From contig JAGYJM010000002.1 of assembly GCA_018402085.1 (NCBI GenBank), positions 1,612,001 to 1,676,000 of the forward strand: DNA of 64,000 nt. Reading direction: 5' to 3'. Position numbers and translations under genes: made by a program. Of this stretch, positions 5,771 through 31,759 are shown piece after piece (within the stretch, counting starts at the first letter, position 1; each line of letters starts with the position of its first letter). The DNA comes from Flavobacteriales bacterium (GTDB lineage: Bacteria; Bacteroidota; Bacteroidia; Flavobacteriales_D; Sanyastnellaceae). Under the pieces are notes generated by a model. That model was not told the origin of the DNA, searched no databases, and was given only the letters and a program-made list of their open reading frames with translations.

Positions 5771-5793
5771 GGTCGTCGCGAAAACCCCACTGA

Positions 5794-5850
5794 GCCGTCG
5801 GCGGTCTGCGGTCAGCCGTCTGCGGTCTGCCGTCTGCGGTCTGCGGTCTA
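5794..5850. repeat. Simple repeat of GTCTGCGG type
   Basis: A run of GCCGTCTGCGGTC units starting 24 bp after the phosphatase stop. Near-identical cassettes follow the genes ending at 12907 and 17842. Confidence 0.75.
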
Positions 5851-12907: not shown

Positions 12908-13016
12908 GTCGGGCGTCGGGAGTCTGGGGTCTGGAGTGCAGCGCAGACCGCAGACCGCAGACCGCAGACGGCTGACCGCAGACGGCTGACGGCTGACGGC
13001 CCTGACGGCCCTGACG
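12908..13016. repeat. Simple-repeat cassette after the T9SS gene
   Basis: GTCGGGAGTCTGGGGTCTGG followed by ACCGCAGACGGCTG-type units, starting at the stop codon. The rest of the gap to 13228 has an inverted repeat TCCCGAC-AA-GTCGGGA at 13155-13170 and no gene. Confidence 0.75.
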
Positions 13017-17053: not shown

Positions 17054-17842
17054 GTGACAGGAAAGAAAAGAAAATACGGAAAATGGGTTGGCGGAGCGCT
17101 CGGATGGGCCTTCGGTGGACCTATAGGCGCGGCCCTGGGTTTCTTCATGGGTATGATGTTCGATGACAACTCCATGGCAGAGGATCGCACAAGGGTAGAA
17201 GGCGGCAACGCTGAAAGGTACCGACATCGTACCCGCTCAGGTGACTTTGCTGCCAGTCTGATCGTTTTATCAGGCGCAGTAATGAAAGCTGATGAACGCG
17301 TACTCAAAAGCGAATTGAATTATGTACGCGATTTCTTCGTCAAAAACTTCGGAGAAGAAACGGCAGAACACCACCTCATCCTGCTGCGAGATATCCTGAA
17401 GAAAGAGATTCCGGTGCGTGAGGTATGCGGACAAATCCGCTACTTCATGGAACACCCCAATCGCATCTTACTGCTGCAGTACCTGTTCGGCATTGCCCAG
17501 GCCGACGGAGCTATCGATCCGCGAGAGGTTCAGGTGATCCGCACCATCTCGCATTACCTTGGAATTTCAGCTAAGGATTTCGAGAGCATTCACGCCATGT
17601 TCGCAGGTGGCGGCGCAAGAACAACTCGTACTCGCCCAATTGCAGAAGCCTACAAAATCCTCGAGGTCGAAGAATCAGCTGCCGACGCTGACGTAAAACA
17701 CGCCTACCGACGTATGGCCACCAAGTACCACCCTGATAAAAACCGCAACGTCGGCGAAGAATACCAGCAAATGGCGCAGGATAAATTCATCAAAGTGCAA
17801 GAGGCCTACGATCAGATTAAAAAGAAAAGAGGAATGAAATAG
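17054..17842 (+). CDS. TerB-like and J-domain protein (DjlA-like)
   Basis: A 262-aa protein. N-terminal Gly-rich hydrophobic hairpin (WVGGALGWAFGGPIGAALGF), a TerB-like helical domain (about residues 55-180; FAASLIVLSGAVMKADERV, ADGAIDPREVQVI) and a C-terminal J domain (about 195-260) with the HPD motif in KYHPDKN. DjlA-type proteins are DnaK cochaperones at the membrane. GTG at 17054 is chosen because it follows the preceding stop; a TTG at 17042 overlaps it. Fourth gene of the LemA operon. Confidence 0.85.
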   Translation: MTGKKRKYGKWVGGALGWAFGGPIGAALGFFMGMMFDDNSMAEDRTRVEGGNAERYRHRTRSGDFAASLIVLSGAVMKADERVLKSELNYVRDFFVKNFGEETAEHHLILLRDILKKEIPVREVCGQIRYFMEHPNRILLLQYLFGIAQADGAIDPREVQVIRTISHYLGISAKDFESIHAMFAGGGARTTRTRPIAEAYKILEVEESAADADVKHAYRRMATKYHPDKNRNVGEEYQQMAQDKFIKVQEAYDQIKKKRGMK

Positions 17843-17892
17843 CCGACTGCGGTCTGCCGTCTGCGGTCAGCCGTCTGCGGTCTGCGGTCTAA
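17843..17892. repeat. Simple repeat of GTCTGCGG type after the J-domain gene
   Basis: Starts at the stop codon and repeats CCGTCTGCGGTC; same family as 5794-5850 in direct orientation. Farther on, GGAGTCCCGTAGGCGTCC recurs in short form near 17957-17975. Confidence 0.7.
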
Positions 17893-22048: not shown

Positions 22049-24035
22049 TTTCTTCCTGCTGCTCGCAGCCGCATGGATATCGTGCACACCACCAACCAAA
22101 GGAGATGCTTATGAACCAGTGATTTCGCTGAATGGCGCATGGACGGTTGAAAGCGACACCATCCCGCCTTTTCAGGCGGAAGTACCGGGCACCATTCACA
22201 CCGATCTGCAGAACGCAGGCAAGATCGGCGAGCCCTTCGCTGACGACAATGAGCAAGAACTGCAGTGGATCGAAGAGCTCAATTTCATTTACTCGCGCAG
22301 CTTCGAGGTGAGTCAACTGCAACTGGATCACGAAGAAGAAGCGCGCCTCATCTTTGACGGACTCGACACCTACGCAGACGTCTATCTCAACGATTCGCTG
22401 ATCCTCAGTGCTGACAATATGTTTCGCTCATGGGAGGTTTCGGTAAAGCCACTGCTGAAGGTTGGCGAGAACACCTTAAAGGTCAAGTTCTTTTCTCCGG
22501 TGACAAAGCACCGGGATGCGAACGGTTACGGTGACCTCACGTTTCCTGCAGACAACGATCCGACGAAGACCGCACCGTTTGTCCGCAAAGCGGCCTACCA
22601 CTTCGGATGGGACTGGGGTCCAAGGTTTGTCACCTGCGGCATGTATCGGGATGTCCGCCTCGAGTTTGGGGATCGTGTTCGCATCCGCCGCTTTCGCGGC
22701 GATATCAAAGAACTCAGCGACAGCATCGCGAAAGTGGATGTACACGTTGAAATTGAGAACCCTGAAGGACGAGAGCTACGGGTGCAGGTGCACAAGCGCG
22801 GCACGAACTATATGCCGGTCGAAGTGACCACGACAGGAACCCAGTTGACCGTGCCAATTGAGATTTTTGAACCCCAACGCTGGTGGCCGAACGGCTCGGG
22901 AGAGCAACACCGCTATGAAATTGGCGTGGCGGTATGGGAAGAAGGCCAAACGCTTGATTTCAAAACCTATCCAATCGGACTGCGTACGATTGAACTTGTG
23001 CATGCGCCTGACAGCATCGGGACGTCGTACTACTTCAAGGTGAACGGCGAACCGCTTTTTATGAAGGGTGCGAATTACATCCCGCAGGATGTCTTTCTGC
23101 CGCGCGTCAAACCTGAGCAATACGACACCCTGCTGCAACGCGTGCACGATGCCGGAATGAACATGCTGCGCGTCTGGGGCGGCGGCGTGTATGAGGATGA
23201 TCGCTTCTATGAACTGTGCGATTCACTGGGCATCCTGGTCTGGCAAGACTTTATGTTCGCCGGCACCGTGTACCCGTGGGACGAAGCCTTCTTAACGAAC
23301 GTTGAAGCCGAAGCCGACGAGCAACTGGCGCGCCTGAACTGGCGTCCGTGCATCGCCCTCTGGTGCGGCAACAACGAAATCGATGTCGCCTGGCACAACT
23401 GGGGATGGCAGCAGAAATACAGTTACAGCCATGAAGACAGTGCGAAGATGAGGCAGGGCTACCTTGAGCTCTTTGAGCATCGGCTGCCGCAACGGGTGGC
23501 TACGCACAACGGCAGGTACATCTCCACCTCCCCGACCAGCAACTGGGGCACGCCCGAGAACTTCAACCATGGCTCAATGCACTACTGGGGCGTCTGGCAC
23601 GGAAGAGAACCCATCAGCAGCTTCGAAGACAACGTCGGACGCTTCATGGTGGAGTACGGGATGCAGAGCTATCCGCACCTTGAGACCCTTCGCGACTATC
23701 TTGATAGCAGCTTTCTCGTTTTAGGAGATTCGACCTTAATGGCACGACAGAAAAGCTACATCGGTAACAGTGAAATTGAGCGCCACCTGAACGACCTCGG
23801 GCTCTATTACGACGACCTTGAAAGCTACATCCGCGCGACCCACGAAGCACAATCTGTCGCGCTGCAAACGGCCATAAGCGCGCACCTCGAAGCTCAACCG
23901 CACTGCATGGGCACCCTTTTCTGGCAACTCAACGACTGCTGGCCGGGTCCGTCATGGAGCGTGATCGACTACGAAGGGCGCAAGAAGCCGGCATATGATC
24001 AAGTGAAGCGGTTGTTTCGCACTTCTGCACCCTGA
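22032..24035 (+). CDS. GH2 beta-mannosidase-like lipoprotein, short form
   Basis: A 667-aa exported lipoprotein (MHWRTSFFLLLAAAWISC). Domains: sugar-binding beta sandwich (about residues 28-200; LNGAWTVESDTIP, AEVPGTIHTDLQ), Ig-like domain (about 205-305), TIM barrel (about 310-660) with WCGNNEIDVAW (acid/base Glu after Asn) and FMVEYGMQSYP (nucleophile Glu). It matches beta-mannosidases but ends at the barrel (WQLNDCWPGPSWSVIDYEG); the usual C-terminal domains of 800-aa relatives are absent. Two family-A hairpins, at 22158 and 22682. Confidence 0.88.
   Translation: MHWRTSFFLLLAAAWISCTPPTKGDAYEPVISLNGAWTVESDTIPPFQAEVPGTIHTDLQNAGKIGEPFADDNEQELQWIEELNFIYSRSFEVSQLQLDHEEEARLIFDGLDTYADVYLNDSLILSADNMFRSWEVSVKPLLKVGENTLKVKFFSPVTKHRDANGYGDLTFPADNDPTKTAPFVRKAAYHFGWDWGPRFVTCGMYRDVRLEFGDRVRIRRFRGDIKELSDSIAKVDVHVEIENPEGRELRVQVHKRGTNYMPVEVTTTGTQLTVPIEIFEPQRWWPNGSGEQHRYEIGVAVWEEGQTLDFKTYPIGLRTIELVHAPDSIGTSYYFKVNGEPLFMKGANYIPQDVFLPRVKPEQYDTLLQRVHDAGMNMLRVWGGGVYEDDRFYELCDSLGILVWQDFMFAGTVYPWDEAFLTNVEAEADEQLARLNWRPCIALWCGNNEIDVAWHNWGWQQKYSYSHEDSAKMRQGYLELFEHRLPQRVATHNGRYISTSPTSNWGTPENFNHGSMHYWGVWHGREPISSFEDNVGRFMVEYGMQSYPHLETLRDYLDSSFLVLGDSTLMARQKSYIGNSEIERHLNDLGLYYDDLESYIRATHEAQSVALQTAISAHLEAQPHCMGTLFWQLNDCWPGPSWSVIDYEGRKKPAYDQVKRLFRTSAP
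22158..22177 (-). repeat. Family-A intragenic hairpin
   Basis: Minus-strand sense CCGCCT-GAAA-AGGCGG-GATG in the GH2 gene, encoding TIPPFQAE. Confidence 0.65.
22682..22701 (-). repeat. Family-A intragenic hairpin
   Basis: Minus-strand sense CGCCGC-GAAA-GCGGCG-GATG in the GH2 gene, encoding RIRRFRGD; same stem as the copy at 16286 but in opposite orientation to its gene. Confidence 0.7.
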
Positions 24036-24071
24036 ATGATGGATGTCAGCGGGATTCTTTCCTGACTTTCT

Positions 24072-24079
24072 TAGCTTTG
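24072..24079 (+). promoter_or_regulatory. -7 promoter box for the DUF4168 lipoprotein
   Basis: TAGCTTTG (TAnnTTTG), 45 nt upstream of the ATG at 24125. Confidence 0.45.
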
Positions 24080-24124
24080 TATCAGCGTTGCAACGAGCAG
24101 CGCACATGATCGATATTCAATTTT

Positions 24125-24736
24125 ATGTTCAATTTCTCCAAGACCCTGGCTGTCGCAGCCATCTTCTCCCTCTCCCTCCTCGCGTGCAACGAAGAATCAT
24201 CCACAGAAAACAATAGCGCCACGGAGCCTTCATCCGAACAAGACTTGAGCGCTAACCAGACAAACCCTTCTCAGCCACAGGATCAGCCCGGTCAGTCTGC
24301 TCAGCAGCCACAAGGCACACAGCCCTTCCCAAGTCAACCGGGCATGCAGCAGCAAGCTCCGAAAGTGGAAGTCTCTGATGAAGAGATGGATAATTTCGTG
24401 AAGCTCGCCAAGCAAGTAGAAACGATTGGTACGAAGGCCGAAGAAGAAATGCTCGCCGTTCTCGATAAAACCGGCATGACCGTTGAACGTTTCAATCAGC
24501 TTCAGCAGGCAGAAGGTCAGAACCAGCTTGACCAAACGGCTGAAGGACAGGAATTGGCAACATTCAACACCTCTATGGAGCAAATCCAGGAGATCCAGAA
24601 CCGCATCGACGCAGAAGTAGAAGCCAAAGCTGACGACCTCGGCTTCACCGAAGACCGCTTCCAGCAAATCAGCATGGCCCTCCGCACGGATGCGCAGCTG
24701 ATGCAACGATTTCAGACGGCGTACACGGCGGAGTGA
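24125..24736 (+). CDS. DUF4168-like lipoprotein
   Basis: A 203-aa lipoprotein: signal FSKTLAVAAIFSLSLLAC, then a Gln/Ser/Pro-rich linker (residues 25-75, with GQSAQQPQGTQPFPSQPGM) and an alpha-helical DUF4168-type domain (about 78-200; VSDEEMDNFVKLAKQVETIG and DLGFTEDRFQQI). The family occurs in many aquatic bacteria and has no known function. The stop is directly followed by a TCTTACGGGCTAATGGTC simple repeat (24741-24771). Confidence 0.78.
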   Translation: MFNFSKTLAVAAIFSLSLLACNEESSTENNSATEPSSEQDLSANQTNPSQPQDQPGQSAQQPQGTQPFPSQPGMQQQAPKVEVSDEEMDNFVKLAKQVETIGTKAEEEMLAVLDKTGMTVERFNQLQQAEGQNQLDQTAEGQELATFNTSMEQIQEIQNRIDAEVEAKADDLGFTEDRFQQISMALRTDAQLMQRFQTAYTAE

Positions 24737-24847
24737 AAGTCTTACGGGCTAATGGTCTGATGGTCTTATGGGCGCGTTGCCGATTGGGGATTTATGATAG
24801 GTGATGGCGTTCAACTGACCTTCCCTAAATAGCGTTGACCGTTTGGT

Positions 24848-25792
24848 TCAACATTCATCTATTTTCCAAGGGCAGTATATACCACCTGCACCTTTGTGTG
24901 GATTGAGCACTTTCGTGTCGGGGTTCAGAGCCGACATAGGTTTGTCATTTGCATAGATCCGGACCTTAGGTCTACTCTCTTGATCCAAAGTTAGCTGTTT
25001 GTGGTAGAACTCTTCAGGTGTGTATCTCATTTTGAATGCTCGGTGTTTGCGCTTAGAGTTGTAATAATGAACGGCTTGGTCTGTCTTCTTGCAGAGCTGC
25101 TTCAAGTCTTTGATTTCCCAATGTTTTAGGAATTCGTTTTTGATGATACCGTTGATCCTCTCAGCATAGGGGTTTTCCCAGGCAGTATTGCCCATACTCG
25201 GGTGTATGCCAGCGTTCTCCAGCATATCCTCATAAAGTCTACTACTGTATTGAGATCCCTTGTCAGAGTGATGAATGAGTTCCCAAGGTGAGTAGTCCAT
25301 ACGGTCAAGTGCCATCTTCAACGCTCTCGCATTTGCTTCTGCCCGAAGGTGATTCCCAACGTTGTACCCTACGATTAGTCGAGTGTATACATCGATAATG
25401 AAGACCATGTAGTAATGCACATCATTTAATCGGAAGTAGGTGATATCACTTTGGATTACCTGAAAAGGGCGTGTCACAATAACTCCTTCTATCAGGTTCG
25501 AGTAGTGGATTGTGCCTTGAACTGTAGTTTTGGTGTAGTTTCTCATGCGCTTGACACCATAGCCAAGTGATAAGAAGATTTCGCAGAACTTGTCTCGCCC
25601 GATAAACTGAGGCTGGAGAGTGTAATACATCTTCTCAACCCCACACCCCGGGTGTTCCTCTTTCAGCTCGTCGGCCAGTATAACCAGCAAATCCAGCTCG
25701 CGATCAAAAGCAAGTTGACGCTGTTTGGCCTGATGAACGGACTGTTTGCTGACTCCCATTGACCGATATAGTTCATTTAGAGAGTAGCTCAC
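24848..25792 (-). CDS. IS3-family transposase OrfB (DDE integrase)
   Basis: A 314-aa transposase with an HTH_21-like N-terminal part (LAFDRELDLLVILADELKEE) and an rve integrase core: VIQSDITYFRLND (first Asp), IHHSDKGSQYSS (second Asp) and NPYAERINGIIKNEF (Glu). Starts with GTG overlapping the orfA stop as GTGA. It looks intact, but mobility needs OrfA function too. Confidence 0.93.
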   Translation of the reverse strand: MSYSLNELYRSMGVSKQSVHQAKQRQLAFDRELDLLVILADELKEEHPGCGVEKMYYTLQPQFIGRDKFCEIFLSLGYGVKRMRNYTKTTVQGTIHYSNLIEGVIVTRPFQVIQSDITYFRLNDVHYYMVFIIDVYTRLIVGYNVGNHLRAEANARALKMALDRMDYSPWELIHHSDKGSQYSSRLYEDMLENAGIHPSMGNTAWENPYAERINGIIKNEFLKHWEIKDLKQLCKKTDQAVHYYNSKRKHRAFKMRYTPEEFYHKQLTLDQESRPKVRIYANDKPMSALNPDTKVLNPHKGAGGIYCPWKIDEC

Positions 25793-26185
25793 TTTTTGCT
25801 TGTTTTCTTGGAACCACCAGAGTGTGGGGTAAAGGAGTTTTTTTTAATGTCGATATCGTAGTGCTCCTTAGCCAACTCGATCATCTTCTCGAGAAAGTCT
25901 ATGGTCATTTGCTTCTGACCTACTGCACGTTCAAGCTCGTTGACCTTTTTCGAGTTCTTTGACCCTGTTGATTTGGCTGTCTTTCATCTCTACGACCGTC
26001 ACATTTTTCTCATTGTAGGCAGAAAACTGGTAAATCCATCGGTAAATTAATGTATTGGAAATCCTGTATTGACGCTCCATCTGTAGGACAGTCATCTTTC
26101 CTGTCTCGTAATCTGAGACCAATTTACGTTTGAACTCTTCGCTGTAACGGCGACGCTTGTTCACGCGTTTTCCTGTTTTGATCAT
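25789..26185 (-). pseudogene. IS3-family OrfA, frameshifted
   Basis: The HTH half (RYSEEFKRKLVSDYETGK, YRISNTLIYRWI) is read from 26185 to 25931 and stops after 84 residues. The expected leucine-zipper half (KVNELERAVGQKQMTIDFLE and on to KKTSKK) continues in another frame down to 25789. A run of five A where four would keep frame (coding strand GAAAAAGGT, near 25948-25956) explains it. The shift needed is +1, unlike the -1 slip of IS3 elements at the end of orfA, so a mutation or sequencing error is likely. Confidence 0.8.
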
Positions 26186-26269
26186 CGCTTTTCGTCTTAA
26201 AAAGCGGTCAACGTATATCAGGGAATGACAACTTACTATTTATTGATGATTGCTTATTATTCGATACAC

Positions 26270-27457
26270 CAGAGCGCCGCAAGGATGCGGCGCTTTTCTT
26301 TTATCGAAAGGACTCGTAGGAACGCGCATCCTGATGGACGGCTATAAGCCGTCCCCCCTTCTGATTGTACAGTACGTGAAAAGCAGCGCAAGTATGCGCT
26401 GCCTTGAGTCCAGCCCCGTAAGAATAAACACAATCCCGATAACGGGATTGCAAGGTGCCGCATTCTTGCGGCGCTTTTCTTTTATCCAAAGGCTTCGTAG
26501 GGACGCGCCTCGCGCGTCCAAGGCGGTGAGCGACGGTTCAAACCGCGTTGCATCGCGATCAATGGACGCATGAAATGCGTCCCTACAATGCATTTTAAAA
26601 ACATCAAACACAATCCCGATAACGGGATTGCAAGGCGTCGCATTCTTGCGGCGCTTTTCTTTTATCCAAAGGCTTCGTAGGGACGCGCCTCGCGCGTCCA
26701 AGGCGGTGAGCGACGGTTCAAACCGCGTTGCATCGCGATCAATGGACGCATGAAATGCGTCCCTACAATGCATTTTAAAAACATCAAACACAATCCCGAT
26801 AACGGGATTGCAAGGTGCCGCATTCTTGCGGCGCTTTTCTTTTATCCAAAGGCTTCGTAGGGACGCGCCTCGCGCGTCCAAGGCGGTGAGCGACGGTTCA
26901 AACCGTGTTGCATCGCGATCAATGGACGCATGAAATGCGTCCCTACAATGCATTTTAAAAACATCAAACACAATCCCGATAACGGGATTGCAAGGTGCCG
27001 CATTCTTGCGGCGCTTTTCTTTTATCCAAAGGCTTCGTAGGGACGCGCCTCGCGCGTCCAAGGCGGTGAGCGACGGTTCAAACCGTGTTGCATCGCGATC
27101 AATGGACGCATGAAATGCGTCCCTACAATGCATTATAAAAACATCAAACGCAATCCCGATAACGGGATTGCAAGGCGTCGCATTCTTGCGGCGCTTTTCT
27201 TTTGTCCAAAGGCTTCGTAGGAACGCGCCTCGCGCGTCCAAAGCGGTGAGCGACGGTTCAAACCGCGTTGCATCGCGATCAATGGACGCATGAAATGCGT
27301 CCCTACAATGCATTTTAAAAACATTAAACACAATCCCGATAACGGGATTGCAAGGTGCCGCATTCTTGCGGCGCTTTTCTTTTATCCAAAGGCTTCGTAG
27401 GGACGCGCCTCGCGCGTCCAAGGCGGTGAGCGACGGTTCAAACCGTGTTGCATCGCG
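26270..27457. repeat. 180-bp composite palindromic tandem array (BIME-like)
   Basis: Six units begin at 26431, 26611, 26791, 26971, 27151 and 27331 (the last cut at about 27457), exactly 180 bp apart and nearly identical; a diverged partial unit lies at 26270-26345. Each unit holds CAATCCCG-ATAA-CGGGATTG, GCCGCA-TTCT-TGCGGC, GTAG plus GGACGCG-CCTCG-CGCGTCC, ACGGTT-CA-AACCGT (intact in some copies), and GGACGCAT-GAA-ATGCGTCC followed by CTAC. So each unit has two GTAG-headed hairpins facing opposite ways. Because 180 is a multiple of three, a long meaningless minus-strand ORF stays open. Confidence 0.9.
26274..26293 (+). repeat. Family-B hairpin (CAAGGATG core)
   Basis: GCGCCGCA-AGGA-TGCGGCGC, perfect 8-bp stem, at the left border of the array. 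A further copy, CAGCGCA-AGTA-TGCGCTG, is at 26384-26401. Confidence 0.75.
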
Positions 27458-27515
27458 TGTCTAGAACGTTTAGTGATGGCTTAAAGCAATCATTCGCATC
27501 CCAAACACACATCGC

Positions 27516-27550
27516 CCATTAGACCATTAGACCGTCAGACCATAAGACTT
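27516..27550. repeat. Simple repeat containing the dacB stop
   Basis: CATTAGACCATTAGACCGTCAG-type units; on the minus strand they read GTCTTATGGTCTGACGG and supply the last codons (SLMV) and the stop of the PBP4 gene. Confidence 0.65.
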
Positions 27551-28950
27551 TCAAGCAACCGCTCAATCGCCTGCCTCGCCTGTGCCGGCGAACAGGAATA
27601 ATTGTTGACCATCACCGCAAAAGCCACTTCTTTTCCATCGCTGAGCGTCATACGTCCGGCGTACGCGCGGACGCCACTGATGTAGCCCGATTTCATTCGT
27701 AGGTTCGGGATGCTATGATGTGGTTTAAGTCCGGCAACGAATGCCTCCTCGGTAGCGGATGTCCAGTAACGGCAGGCATTCGCGAGCTGTCTGGCAGTAA
27801 TGGTATTGGCGCGGCTGAGGCCTGAGCCGTCAAGTACATTCAAACCGGTTAAATCGGGAGTATGCAGCTCCAGCATTGAACGTAGGGCGCGCTTCCCGGC
27901 GTCAAAGCTTCCCTCTCCGCTTTCTTTCATCCCGAGGTGCTTGAGCAGGCAGGTGGCATATAAGTTGACACTTTTAAGATTGGTGAGCCGCACGATTTCG
28001 CTGAGCGGAGGAGATAGCTTAGAGAAAATGGGTTTCTCATCACCCCTGACTACCGCCTTTCGACTAACTACAGGCTGCCCGCTGACAACCATTCCTTTTT
28101 GCTCAAGTTTTGCTTTAAGGAGCTGCCCCAGCAGAAAAGCAGGATTACTGACGGCGCCTTTGATCGTGAATCTCTCACTGCTTTCGGGTATCGTGCCGTA
28201 AATAACGCGCTCATTGGTTCCGGGGATGCCATAGATGTATGCATTATCACGCTGATCAGGTGCCGTAGTCACCCGGCAATCGAAGATGAGTCCGAGCTCC
28301 GGCTCGGTATCCATGACCGAGACCATGCCGCGCTCAGGGAAGTGTGTCTGCAAAGACAGGTCATAGCTATTGTCAAACACATTGATACCGTAGGAACCGG
28401 CCGCATAGTAATTCCCGGCATCCTCGATGGGTGTGCTGCCATGCAGCGGCGGACCTTCAAAATAACTGTCATCGACGATGATGTTGCCCTGAACCTGGTC
28501 AATGCCCGCATTTCGGATGGCCATTATCCATGCATTCAAGAAATCCTGATCGTTAAAATAACTCGATCCAAGTGTAGGGTCGCCGTGCCCTTTGATGATC
28601 AAATCACCATGAAGCACACCTTGAGCGGTCAACTCACCGCTGTAAAAGAGTTCGGTTTTGAAGCGGTGGTCCGGACCAAAAGCATCTAAAGCCGCGTGCG
28701 TAACAACCGTTTTCACAGCCGAGGCAGGCACGAGACTGAGGTCAGCATTCAGCGCCAGGTGTTCTTCTCCGCTCTTCAGATCAACTGCACAAAAGCCGAT
28801 AGATGCACCCTGCAGGTGTTCTTCAGCGAGAAATCGCTGGATGGCTTCGCGGTGCGATTGTCCGACGGCAGAACCGCTTAGCACGGTTATTGCAGTAAGG
28901 AGGATGGAAAGACGTAAATTTGAAGATATGCGGAAGTGGATACTCGCCAT
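27535..28950 (-). CDS. dacB: D-alanyl-D-alanine carboxypeptidase/endopeptidase (PBP4 type)
   Basis: A 471-aa periplasmic peptidoglycan hydrolase of the S13 family with signal peptide (LRLSILLTAITVLSGSAVGQ). Active-site motifs: SxxK in VPASAVKTV, DGSGLSRANTIT (SxN region) and KSG in RMKSGYISGVRAYAG. It trims or opens peptide cross-links. ATG at 28950 is the only good start, which makes it overlap head-to-head with the gene starting at 28928. Its stop codon lies inside a TCTTATGGTCTGACGG simple repeat. Confidence 0.9.
   Translation of the reverse strand: MASIHFRISSNLRLSILLTAITVLSGSAVGQSHREAIQRFLAEEHLQGASIGFCAVDLKSGEEHLALNADLSLVPASAVKTVVTHAALDAFGPDHRFKTELFYSGELTAQGVLHGDLIIKGHGDPTLGSSYFNDQDFLNAWIMAIRNAGIDQVQGNIIVDDSYFEGPPLHGSTPIEDAGNYYAAGSYGINVFDNSYDLSLQTHFPERGMVSVMDTEPELGLIFDCRVTTAPDQRDNAYIYGIPGTNERVIYGTIPESSERFTIKGAVSNPAFLLGQLLKAKLEQKGMVVSGQPVVSRKAVVRGDEKPIFSKLSPPLSEIVRLTNLKSVNLYATCLLKHLGMKESGEGSFDAGKRALRSMLELHTPDLTGLNVLDGSGLSRANTITARQLANACRYWTSATEEAFVAGLKPHHSIPNLRMKSGYISGVRAYAGRMTLSDGKEVAFAVMVNNYSCSPAQARQAIERLLESLMV
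28915..28922 (+). promoter_or_regulatory. -7 promoter box for the small secreted protein
   Basis: TAAATTTG, 5 nt before the ATG at 28928; a TTG lies 22 nt upstream (28890-28892), a possible -33 element. The box sits within the signal-peptide codons of the divergent dacB gene. Confidence 0.5.
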
Positions 28951-29362
28951 TGGTACTTGTTTTATGCTCCTGACGGTTTCGAAGATCGGAAACTCGCAGG
29001 AGCTGTCACCCGCTGATGAACGCAAAAAAGGTACCATCTTCAAAGAAATCGATCTGACACCGCAGCAAGAAGTCATGATCGATAGCCTCTTCACCGGTTA
29101 TGCCCTCGAGCTGAACGCTATTGACACCCGCATAGACAGCCTCGAGGCTGACCCCAAGCTCACCGAAGACCAGCTGCTCGTCCGCATCAACGTCTTGAAC
29201 CAGGAGAAAAAAGACCTGAAAGAAGTCCGCGAGCTCGATATCAAATCGGTGCTACGTCCTGAGCAAGTCACCCTCTACGACGAAAAGGTCGCTCCTCAAA
29301 AACCCAAGGTGTTGCATTTCGGCATCCACAACCGGGCGGATTGTAATGTGTGTGATAAATAG
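28928..29362 (+). CDS. Small secreted protein, Spy/CpxP-like motif
   Basis: A 144-aa exported protein: signal peptide MRKWILAIGTCFMLLTVS...NSQ, then a helical body with DLTPQQEVMIDSLFTGY (an LTPxQ motif, as in Spy/CpxP-type helical chaperones), DPKLTEDQLLVRI and VLRPEQVTLYDE, and a C-terminal CNVC. The LTPxQ likeness is suggestive only. Its start overlaps the divergent PBP4 start by 23 bp. The stop merges into a TCTAGGGTCTGGGGTC repeat. Confidence 0.75.
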   Translation: MRKWILAIGTCFMLLTVSKIGNSQELSPADERKKGTIFKEIDLTPQQEVMIDSLFTGYALELNAIDTRIDSLEADPKLTEDQLLVRINVLNQEKKDLKEVRELDIKSVLRPEQVTLYDEKVAPQKPKVLHFGIHNRADCNVCDK

Positions 29363-30640: not shown

Positions 30641-30704
30641 CCTTTTTTGAAGACGAAATCAGCCTGTTTTTAGAAAACATCATCAGAAAAACCCCATGAA
30701 GACG

Positions 30705-30977
30705 AACCAAATTCCCGTGAACGCGAACAAAATTCCCGTGAACGCAAACCAAATTCCCGTGAACGCAAACCGAATTCCCGTGAACGCGAACCAAATTCCC
30801 GTGAATGCGAACAAAATTCCCGTGAACGCGAACAAAATTCCCGTGAACGCGAGCAAAATCCCCGTGAACGTGAGCAAAAACCCCGTGAACGCGAGCAAAA
30901 TCCCCGTGAACGCGAACAAAAACCCCGTGAACGCAAACCAAATTCCTGTGAACGCGGGCCAAATTCACATGAACGCC
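30705..30977 (+). repeat. 21-bp minisatellite, 13 copies
   Basis: Units like AATTCCCGTGAACGCGAACA repeat every 21 bp. Because 21 is a multiple of three, several frames stay open: plus-strand NQIPVNA x13 (ORF 30696-31073), minus-strand FTGILFA and HGNFVRV versions. Copies vary mainly at two positions (AAC/AGC and C/A changes). No signal peptide or flanking domain supports translation, so it is listed as a repeat. Confidence 0.88.
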
Positions 30978-31117: not shown

Positions 31118-31627
31118 ATGGGACAACAGAGAGTCTTGCGCGACAAAAAGATTCCCCTTCGTGCTGAATTCTGGGATTATGCAGCTCCGGGGTTTTACTT
31201 CATAACCATCAATCTTGCATTCAGAAAACCCCATTTCGGAAAAGTAGTCGAGGGCTGCATGGAGCTTTCCGAAATAGGTAAAATCGCAAGAGATGAGTGG
31301 GTCAAATCATTCTTACTTCGTCCGCGTATGCACCTGTTCATGGGGCCTTTTGTCGTAATGCCTGATCATTTTCATGCCATCATAGGTATCGGTGATAGCA
31401 ACTACAACACTGAATTAAAGCCTTCCAATTCTCAAGGAGGTCAATCGAATAACCTTTCTTCTATCATTCGTGGATTCAAAGGTGCTGTGACCCGAAGGGC
31501 TCGAGAAATAACCCCATCATTCGAATGGCAATCACTGTACCATGATCACATTATCAGGGATGCCCAAGAAATGAAGAGAATCTGCAATTATATTGTCACC
31601 AACCCACAGAAATGGAAAAATGGGTAG
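31118..31627 (+). CDS. REP-associated tyrosine transposase (RAYT, Y1/HUH family)
   Basis: A 169-aa single-strand transposase of the IS200-like class. Seen: YFITINLAFRKPHFG (beta strand 1), VVMPDHFHAIIGI with the HxH metal site, and the helix KRICNYIVTNPQKW with the catalytic Tyr and the typical NPxxW. RAYTs cut and join single-stranded REP hairpins that carry a GTAG tetranucleotide. ATG at 31118 is chosen; a TTG 33 bp upstream is in frame. Palindromes lie on both sides (30999-31020 and 31653-31759). No transposon ends typical of IS200/IS605 were identified. Confidence 0.88.
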   Translation: MGQQRVLRDKKIPLRAEFWDYAAPGFYFITINLAFRKPHFGKVVEGCMELSEIGKIARDEWVKSFLLRPRMHLFMGPFVVMPDHFHAIIGIGDSNYNTELKPSNSQGGQSNNLSSIIRGFKGAVTRRAREITPSFEWQSLYHDHIIRDAQEMKRICNYIVTNPQKWKNG

Positions 31628-31629
31628 CT

Positions 31630-31759
31630 GTGGGTTTGGACTGTTGTTGTGGGTGTGGACTGCAGTCCACACCTACAATGGGATAACTGTTGTAGGTTTG
31701 GACTGTTGTTGTGGGTGTGGACTGTTGTTGTAGGTGTGGACTGCAGTCCACACCTACAA
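31630..31759. repeat. REP-like palindrome cluster between RAYT and GH92
   Basis: A perfect 20-bp palindrome GTGTGGACTG/CAGTCCACAC at 31653-31672, followed by CTAC. Degenerate half copies (GTAGGTTTGGACTGTTGTTG) at 31690-31727. A perfect 32-bp palindrome at 31728-31759 starting TTGTAGGTGTGGACTG. GTAG heads both arms. The last one ends 20 bp before the GH92 start, so it would be in that mRNA leader. Confidence 0.85.

Follow-up and report, generated by a model that had tools for sequence, protein, structure and literature searches.

BIME-like sequences are tandemly reiterated REP pairs in opposite orientation. In the papers compared here, work on REP elements and the RAYT genes associated with them centres on Proteobacteria, and the substrate choice of RAYTs is still being worked out. 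The relevant passages of these papers describe several related arrangements. In P. fluorescens SBW25, 16 tandem REPIN clusters comprising flanking DNA were found, some of them beside RAYTs (PMC3116915, Bertels and Rainey 2011). The REPs of E. coli are bulged (PMC8266576), and TnpAREP cleaves and rejoins single-stranded REPs with a GTAG motif (PMC8266576, PMC6006769). Some REP dimers have stem-loops in their spacers (two, 20–23 bp apart, in A. tumefaciens CGTC-3) or lie inside other palindromes, and around the RAYTs of P. putida and P. fluorescens unrelated stem-loops stand next to degenerated GTAG-1 units, with ends described as 'double palindromic TIR' (PMC3733652). REPs have been counted in two Flavobacterium genomes with RepRanger, in passages that are silent on arrays there (PMC12306157), and the targeting of REPs by insertion sequences is the subject of PMC1525189.

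Here we focus on a tandem array in a window of 64,000 nucleotides (the whole stretch of DNA that was analysed) from a Flavobacteriales bacterium, whose 3.78 Mb genome consists of two contigs (C1 and C2). We consider it likely, with a probability of about 0.8, that this array is a tandemly reiterated composite of GTAG-class REPs, BIME-like and REPIN-like in its layout, that derives from the ends of a RAYT element, was spread by a RAYT and was then multiplied in place. This kind of locus is already known, as tandem REPIN clusters, BIME-2 elements, stem-loop spacers and stem-loops at RAYT ends have all been published.

The array and its 180-bp unit

TRF identified the array with 97% matches and 0% indels, and a repeat search gave a start-to-start spacing of exactly 180 (Table 1), which confirms the exactly periodic, nearly identical units of the initial annotation. 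That annotation let the array begin at 26270. A tandem array is indeed present, but this start also takes in a diverged partial copy and the non-tandem stretch 26331-26425; the distance of 40 bp to the IS3 copy holds for the partial copy (end of the IS at 26230, partial copy from 26274). Among the units, 9 of the 180 columns are variable. The variants were thought to alternate between units, which they do not do strictly: those at columns 31 and 33 return each third unit (TCTTCT and CTCCTC), as those at column 121 nearly do (CCTTCT), and unit 5 has five private changes. A duplication of 540-bp blocks, in line with the proposed amplification of larger blocks, or gene conversion may have occurred, but this rests on three columns and strict alternation is absent.

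Table 1. Coordinates of the array, its parts and its neighbours in the window.
Feature	Position	Strand	Remarks
DUF4168 gene	24125..24736	+	convergent with the PBP4 gene if IS3 is set aside
IS3-family insertion sequence	24817..26230	-	3-bp target duplication ACT
Diverged partial copy (hairpin B and REP head), 57 nt, 82%	26274..26330	+	lies 181 bp (one period) ahead of the corresponding part of the first copy
Non-tandem 95-nt stretch	26331..26425		two other palindromes: GGACGGCT..AGCCGTCC (26336-26354) and GCAGCGCA..TGCGCTGC (26383-26402)
Tandem array, 180-bp unit, 5.73 copies	26426..27457		from TRF, repeat search and unit variants
Hairpin C, CAATCCCG-ATAA-CGGGATTG	26431..26450	-	first of six copies at 180-bp steps; terminator-like on the - strand
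Hairpin B, GTGCCGCA-TTCT-TGCGGCGC, CGCATTCTTGCG core	26455..26474	+	first of six copies; terminator-like on the + strand (TTTTCTTTT)
REP+, GTAGGGACGCGCCTCGCGCGTCC, GTAG head	26497..26519	+	first of six copies (unit 5: GTAGGAACG)
Small hairpin ACGGTTCAAACCG	26533..26545		between both REPs; first of six copies
REP-, GTAGGGACGCATTTCATGCGTCC, ends in CTAC	26564..26586	-	first of five copies
PBP4-type D-Ala-D-Ala carboxypeptidase gene (S13)	27535..29094	-	reads towards the array, ends 77 nt from it
RAYT gene with a different REP-like palindrome (GGTGTGGACTGCAGTCCACACC)	31121..31627	+	sixth aligned RAYT, outside the frame shared by five RAYTs

The first unit, which we examined for palindromes, contains five, two of them GTAG-headed and mutually inverted (REP+ and REP-). 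Both the four or five palindromes per unit and the two opposite GTAG-headed hairpins of the initial annotation are thereby recovered. In the repeated unit, REP- is followed after 24 nt by hairpin C, after a further 4 nt by hairpin B and after another 22 nt by REP+. Hairpin B ends 22 nt 5' of the GTAG of REP+ and copies 2–6 of hairpin C lie 24 nt from the GTAG of the REP- of the preceding unit, which means that both hairpins end 22 or 24 nt 5' of the GTAG of a REP. The 'CAAGAATG-core' and 'CAATCCCG' hairpins had been listed as additional hairpins of the unit; they are not free mosaic motifs but stand at a set distance from REP heads.

The REPs of the array consist of an unpaired GTAG at the foot of a palindrome of 20–40 nt, as is the rule for the GTAG class, and have perfect 8-bp stems except in the unit-5 copy with GTAGGAACG. 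They are arranged in tandem in opposite orientations, as in BIME-2. As these are perfect GTAG palindromes and not REPs of the E. coli type with a bulged, imperfect stem, the array is not an E. coli BIME. The label BIME-like can be kept for the tandem of inverted REP pairs and for the REP-flanked RAYTs of the genome, but not for the stems. Folded as single-stranded DNA, unit 2 reached -47.2 kcal/mol versus -28.8 (sd 2.79) for shuffled sequences (z -6.6; 0 of 200 shuffles as good), and unit 1 gave a z of -6.1 (0 of 300). The predicted fold comprises the 8-bp hairpins C and B and a long stem of REP+ and REP- around the small central hairpin. In this prediction the two inverted REPs pair into one long hairpin, as in a REPIN.

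REPs, second hairpins and RAYT genes in the genome

To describe the REP family, we used the pattern GTAGGGACGC-N3..12-GCGTCC (written GTAGGGACGCN{3,12}GCGTCC), which had 110 matches in the genome and none in the reversed control. The REPs are therefore dispersed in many copies, far above chance, as expected for the GTAG class. Tandem arrays of the GTAGGGACGC REP were checked at nine places, with periods of 180, 230, 192, 45, 211, 130, 83, 100 and 81 bp, and regular spacing of matches points to further arrays at C1:128008, C2:2252, C2:672284, C2:1498188, C2:1543492 and C2:1551039. Other REP classes of this genome form more arrays, several of them beside RAYT genes. Of 60 genomes, five had the pattern: the source genome itself, two of the same genus (with 3 and 6 matches) and a further two. 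When named genomes were scanned, at least 115 stretches belonging to many phyla contained it, which means that this REP sequence as such occurs widely.

Other repeats were seen near these elements. Low-complexity runs (CCCCGATC, GACTTATG, GGGAAACC) adjoin REPs elsewhere in the source genome. At C2:2062016-2065360 (L064, 17-3361), TRF found imperfect repeat blocks with periods of 42, 63, 66, 72, 132 and ~200 bp, of which the ~200-bp-period block has the sequence TCGTGAAGCTCGTCACTAACG and stops 79 bp short of the 83-bp REP array.

The hairpins at a set distance from GTAG are not confined to the array. We searched the flanks of distinct elements for hairpins with 7 or more of 8 pairs, irrespective of hairpin sequence, in stretches that had been fetched for their REPs or RAYTs and are a non-random sample of elements sharing descent. 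On the 5' side, 39 of 65 distinct GTAGGGACGC elements had a hairpin, 36 of them at 20–24 nt; on the 3' side there were 9 of 65, with one at 20–24 nt (shuffle mean 0.85). With array copies collapsed, 30 of 57 GTAGGGACGC loci had the hairpin at 20–24 nt, 3 had it at other distances and 24 had none. Distinct GGACG-type elements gave 60 of 74 on the 5' side (53 at 20–24 nt) and 14 of 74, at scattered distances, on the 3' side. A combined hairpin–REP pattern, CGCATNNTTGCG-N18..46-GGGACG (CGCATNNTTGCGN{18,46}GGGACG), matched the genome 189 times and the reversed control once, whereas CGCATNNTTGCG alone had 293 matches against 46. In 100 of 100 rows taken from the 189 matches the gap was 27–33, where 18–46 was allowed; these rows collapse to 41 loci that share descent, so that a binomial value for the gap is only indicative.

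The second hairpin varies in sequence but stays paired. Among 48 distinct ones, pairs 2, 3 and 4 each use three or more Watson–Crick pair types, a count that leans towards pairing, because the best-paired segments had been chosen and a few of these belong to neighbouring REPs. CCCG-type hairpins lie at 21–24 nt, like CGCA-type ones. In seven of the nine arrays checked, the unit has a second hairpin 20–24 nt 5' of GTAG. The exceptions are the 81-bp array, which lacks it, and the 45-bp array, in which it precedes the first copy only; at the later copies of the latter the preceding REP itself is 22 nt away. Both in these 45-bp copies and in the REP pairs of locus L013, the hairpin 22–25 nt 5' of GTAG is that of another REP.

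The second hairpin is neither universal in its own genome, where the 24 of 57 loci mentioned above are without it, nor a rule for all GTAGGGACGC REPs. The 26 of 65 distinct elements that lack it in the 7-of-8 test are mostly dispersed GATTTATC/GATTCATC singletons. In the 115 stretches from other organisms among the matches listed, 13 of 155 distinct elements had a 5' hairpin and 2 of 155 had it at 20–24 nt (shuffle mean 3.45), and perfect stems of at least 7 pairs were found, again among the matches listed, on the 5' side of 12 of 155 and on the 3' side of 48 of 155. In the sister genomes (G001 and G002), 4 of 8 distinct elements had an 8-4-8 hairpin at 29–30 nt and none had one at 20–24 nt, and five CTAATG-type elements had a shorter stem at 21–22 nt, as judged by eye only. 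Genome G002 also contains GTAGGGACGC REP pairs with other cores, 158 to 212 bp apart (C1:184125 and 1764177-1766494; L207 and L208), with a hairpin ~22 or ~30 nt upstream.

A speculative model, which we regard as doubtful, is that the RAYTs of this lineage read a two-part end, consisting of a GTAG REP and a second single-stranded hairpin about 22 nt away (about two helical turns), or about 30 nt away (near three) in the sister genome. The sequence of this hairpin would be replaceable (CGCA-type, CCCG-type or even another REP) and its position less so, so that the RAYT or a partner protein would read geometry, and tandem arrays would be a by-product.

The RAYT genes were found with the NCBIfam model REP_Tyr_transpos, which gave eight matches in seven genes of the genome, all under the 80-bit cut-off; Pfam Y1_Tnp scored 13–16 bits against a cut-off of 23 in the two RAYTs tested. 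One of the seven genes (C2:1309048-1309395) is the sole Pfam IS200-type match, and was left out of the alignment and the flank analysis. In the six aligned RAYTs, the HUH motif (H74/H76), Y144 and N148-P149 (Y-x3-NP) are invariant, and a comparison of their profile with solved structures (E 0.01 or less) gave one match only, the TnpAREP of E. coli (4er8, E 5.5e-5). The genes thus have the HUH motif, the tyrosine in Y-x3-NP and the likeness to a solved TnpAREP by which RAYTs are recognised.

Five of the six aligned RAYTs share one frame: REP, hairpin, 72–80 nt, gene, hairpin at or up to 6 nt from the stop, and REP, with the two ends inverted. In one of these five, the RAYT near 2496526, the last part of the reading frame includes the downstream hairpin. 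Inverted GTAGGGACGC REPs, as known from the GTAG class, flank the RAYTs at C1:84932-85411 and near C2:2965269. At 11 RAYT loci of relatives a comparable double-hairpin frame was absent, except for a partial likeness in one (L240). Arrays adjoin four of the six aligned RAYTs (period in bp by copies): 45 × 9.5 at the RAYT of contig C1; 60 × 14.1 and 60 × 7.1; 59 × 2.6, 247 × 5.4, 134 × 4.0 and 59 × 3.4; and 44 × 12.2 and 56 × 3.3. The 247-bp unit (5.4 copies, C2:2519957-2521289, L068 2958-4290) lies downstream of its RAYT and contains the REP of that RAYT, the second hairpin and other sequence.

The RAYT in the window was ruled out as cognate of the array because its REP has a different sequence, and the exact core of the GGTGTGGACTGCAGTCCACACC palindromes occurs only beside it, at 31652-31673 and 31733-31754. 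The second of these copies can be extended to GTAG...CTAC, a 19-bp tandem repeat lies at 31688-31743, and just upstream of the gene TRF found a 21-bp unit in 13 copies (30703-30976), one frame of which reads as IPVNAN-type heptads. The RAYT of contig C1 is likely the cognate, because its flanking REP cores (ATTTAAT and ACCTCGT) are nearest to those of the array (ATTTCAT and GCCTCGC), a comparison of short REP cores only. Against it, the hairpin–REP spacers of the array have no visible match to those of the C1 RAYT, and GCCTCGC REPs pair with other REP classes too (L014 and L015). ATTTNAT and GCCTCG cores also occur together in composites of the 192-bp array and of four other places on C2 (2840270, 2843239, 2847901 and 3032813; at 3032813 one REP has CATAG instead of GTAG).

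Origin of the array and alternative explanations

Elsewhere in the genome, composites of identical or similar REPs are found both as single copies and within other arrays. As two-hairpin ends flank five RAYTs on both sides and in inverted orientation, the unit looks like the ends of a RAYT element without the gene. We infer that it may be an end-to-end remnant (LE-RE) left after gene loss. A RAYT that acts on REP hairpins in single-stranded DNA, most probably that of contig C1 to judge by its REP cores, would have spread this remnant. By analogy with the published cleavage and rejoining by TnpAREP, two-end composites could spread without a gene. The unit would then have been amplified at its site through unequal exchange, or slippage, between related copies that lie side by side, perhaps with the diverged copy one period upstream as the seed.

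For this last step, unequal exchange or slippage is slightly more likely than growth driven by the RAYT. Units within arrays are near-identical and periods vary freely. Of eight arrays, only some (those with periods of 45, 83 and 100 bp) have clearly diverged outer copies; the 192-bp array is not among them, and partial end copies confound others. The 83-bp array has the same hairpin at its start and end, and four of the nine arrays checked (45-, 83-, 100- and 230-bp) have an end at a hairpin or REP, which is compatible with homology-driven exchange and also with a hairpin- or RAYT-driven step. That the RAYT itself made the tandem copies, by cleavage and strand transfer or by rolling-circle-like copying at REPs, is possible, if on balance unlikely. 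Such a process would account for these array ends, and four of the six aligned RAYTs here have arrays next to them, as is also reported for RAYTs in SBW25 (PMC3116915). However, it fits less well with periods ranging freely from 45 to 247, with the ends of the 192- and 130-bp arrays in low-complexity sequence or with those of the window array at no REP edge, and the shared end hairpin of the 83-bp array is also expected from recombination between related copies. The count of units is that of the assembly, and an error in it is very improbable: the genome was assembled in two contigs, the nine variable columns tell the units apart and the same assembly has eight other arrays with other periods.

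Other explanations assign the array a function in the host, on which it probably has little effect. The hairpins with T tails, which lie on opposite strands, could form a two-way terminator between the PBP4 and DUF4168 genes. It is nevertheless quite improbable that the array is a selected regulatory element, either a multi-copy bidirectional intrinsic terminator or a protector of mRNA 3' ends for these two genes. The region 24000-29200 does contain 23 terminator-like sites against 5.5 (sd 2.7) in shuffles, six of which are alternative ways to fold the same B hairpins; the B hairpins have their T tails on the + strand and the C hairpins on the - strand, the native flanking genes are convergent with IS3 set aside, and the 230-bp array has a C-type hairpin with a TTTTTC tail. 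Yet other arrays and the flanks of RAYTs have weaker T tails at their B-type hairpins, or none, and in a crude gene call the genes around the nine arrays are convergent in 2 cases, divergent in 3 and co-oriented in 4 (the window array being counted as co-oriented because the IS3 frame is nearest). Furthermore, in relatives the 11 loci at the best PBP4 matches have no tandem repeat, although their neighbour genes differ and the position need not match. The possibility that the array encodes a repetitive protein can practically be discounted. An open reading frame of 359 codons runs across it on the minus strand (26342-27421), and the whole frame exceeds the cut-off of Pfam zf-HC5HC2H_2 (33.9 versus 27 bits). 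However, as 180 is a multiple of 3, a frame that is open in one unit stays open, and the periods 230, 211, 130, 83 and 100 are not multiples of 3. We rejected this frame as coding even though the zinc-finger model reaches its cut-off through the summing of repeats; no single stretch of the frame passes any Pfam model, and the seven Pfam models listed are mutually unrelated, except for two zinc fingers.

Besides the IS3 copy in the window, a second full copy elsewhere in the genome has a different 3-bp target duplication, and since the duplications of the two full copies differ, the IS3 is a separate insertion whose link to the array is incidental. It was rejected as the source of the array on this ground and because the 230- and 192-bp arrays are far from both copies. 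Both IS3 copies lie within ~60 bp of a REP-type hairpin, which with n=2 proves nothing. PBP4 matches in two genomes of the same genus have 44–46% identity. TRF found no tandem repeats of period 25 or more at the 11 loci around the best PBP4 matches of relatives; downstream of these matches the neighbour genes differ from those of the window in the four genomes inspected, so the position need not correspond and these loci do not date the array. In the window, an Rfam scan at gathering thresholds had zero matches and a tRNA/tmRNA search found none. Three short arrays of 7-bp GTCTGCG/CGCAGAC units are located at 5793-5849, 12942-13000 and 17842-17890.

Comparison with described REP systems

The array is most similar to three described systems, each compared here with passages of the papers cited. 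Like the SBW25 REPIN clusters, it consists of inverted REP pairs that are tandemly repeated with flanking DNA, and those clusters include a 184-bp spacing class (PMC3116915). Unlike them, seven of the nine arrays here have a second hairpin 20–24 nt 5' of GTAG, and the unit in the window has two hairpins between head-inward REPs. Like E. coli BIME-2, which also flanks the E. coli rayt (PMC2817692), the array contains several tandem inverted REP units; the likeness is one of GTAG head and layout, as the stems here are perfect and without a bulge. It shares with the GTAG REP superfamily the GTAG on a perfect stem, the dimers and the tandem clusters with flanking DNA (Di Nocera 2013, PMC3733652). 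The GTAG repeats listed there are from Proteobacteria, Cyanobacteria, Chloroflexi and PVC, with Bacteroidetes not among them, and a set distance from the GTAG head to a second stem-loop, as we observe it in this genome, is not given in those passages.

The RAYTs of this genome resemble REPtrons and TnpAREP subclasses 2.4 and 2.6, in which an HUH-Y RAYT gene is flanked by REPs and among which Bacteroidetes are included, according to passages of PMC6006769. In subclass 2.4, the 'double foot' REP is a single hairpin whose two feet are GT[AG]G and its complement (same source), and not a pair of hairpins spaced at a set distance. With several RAYTs, five of them in a similar two-hairpin frame, and many arrays and single elements, this genome offers natural variants with which to test recognition by hairpin distance, and its arrays of differing period but related units are a useful set for asking how REP clusters grow. 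In the passages of open-licence PubMed Central papers that we compared, a second hairpin of variable sequence at a set distance from GTAG was not met. Relative to that literature, as far as those passages reach, the new element is a variable hairpin at near-constant distance around five RAYTs of one genome, with tandem arrays of such extent.
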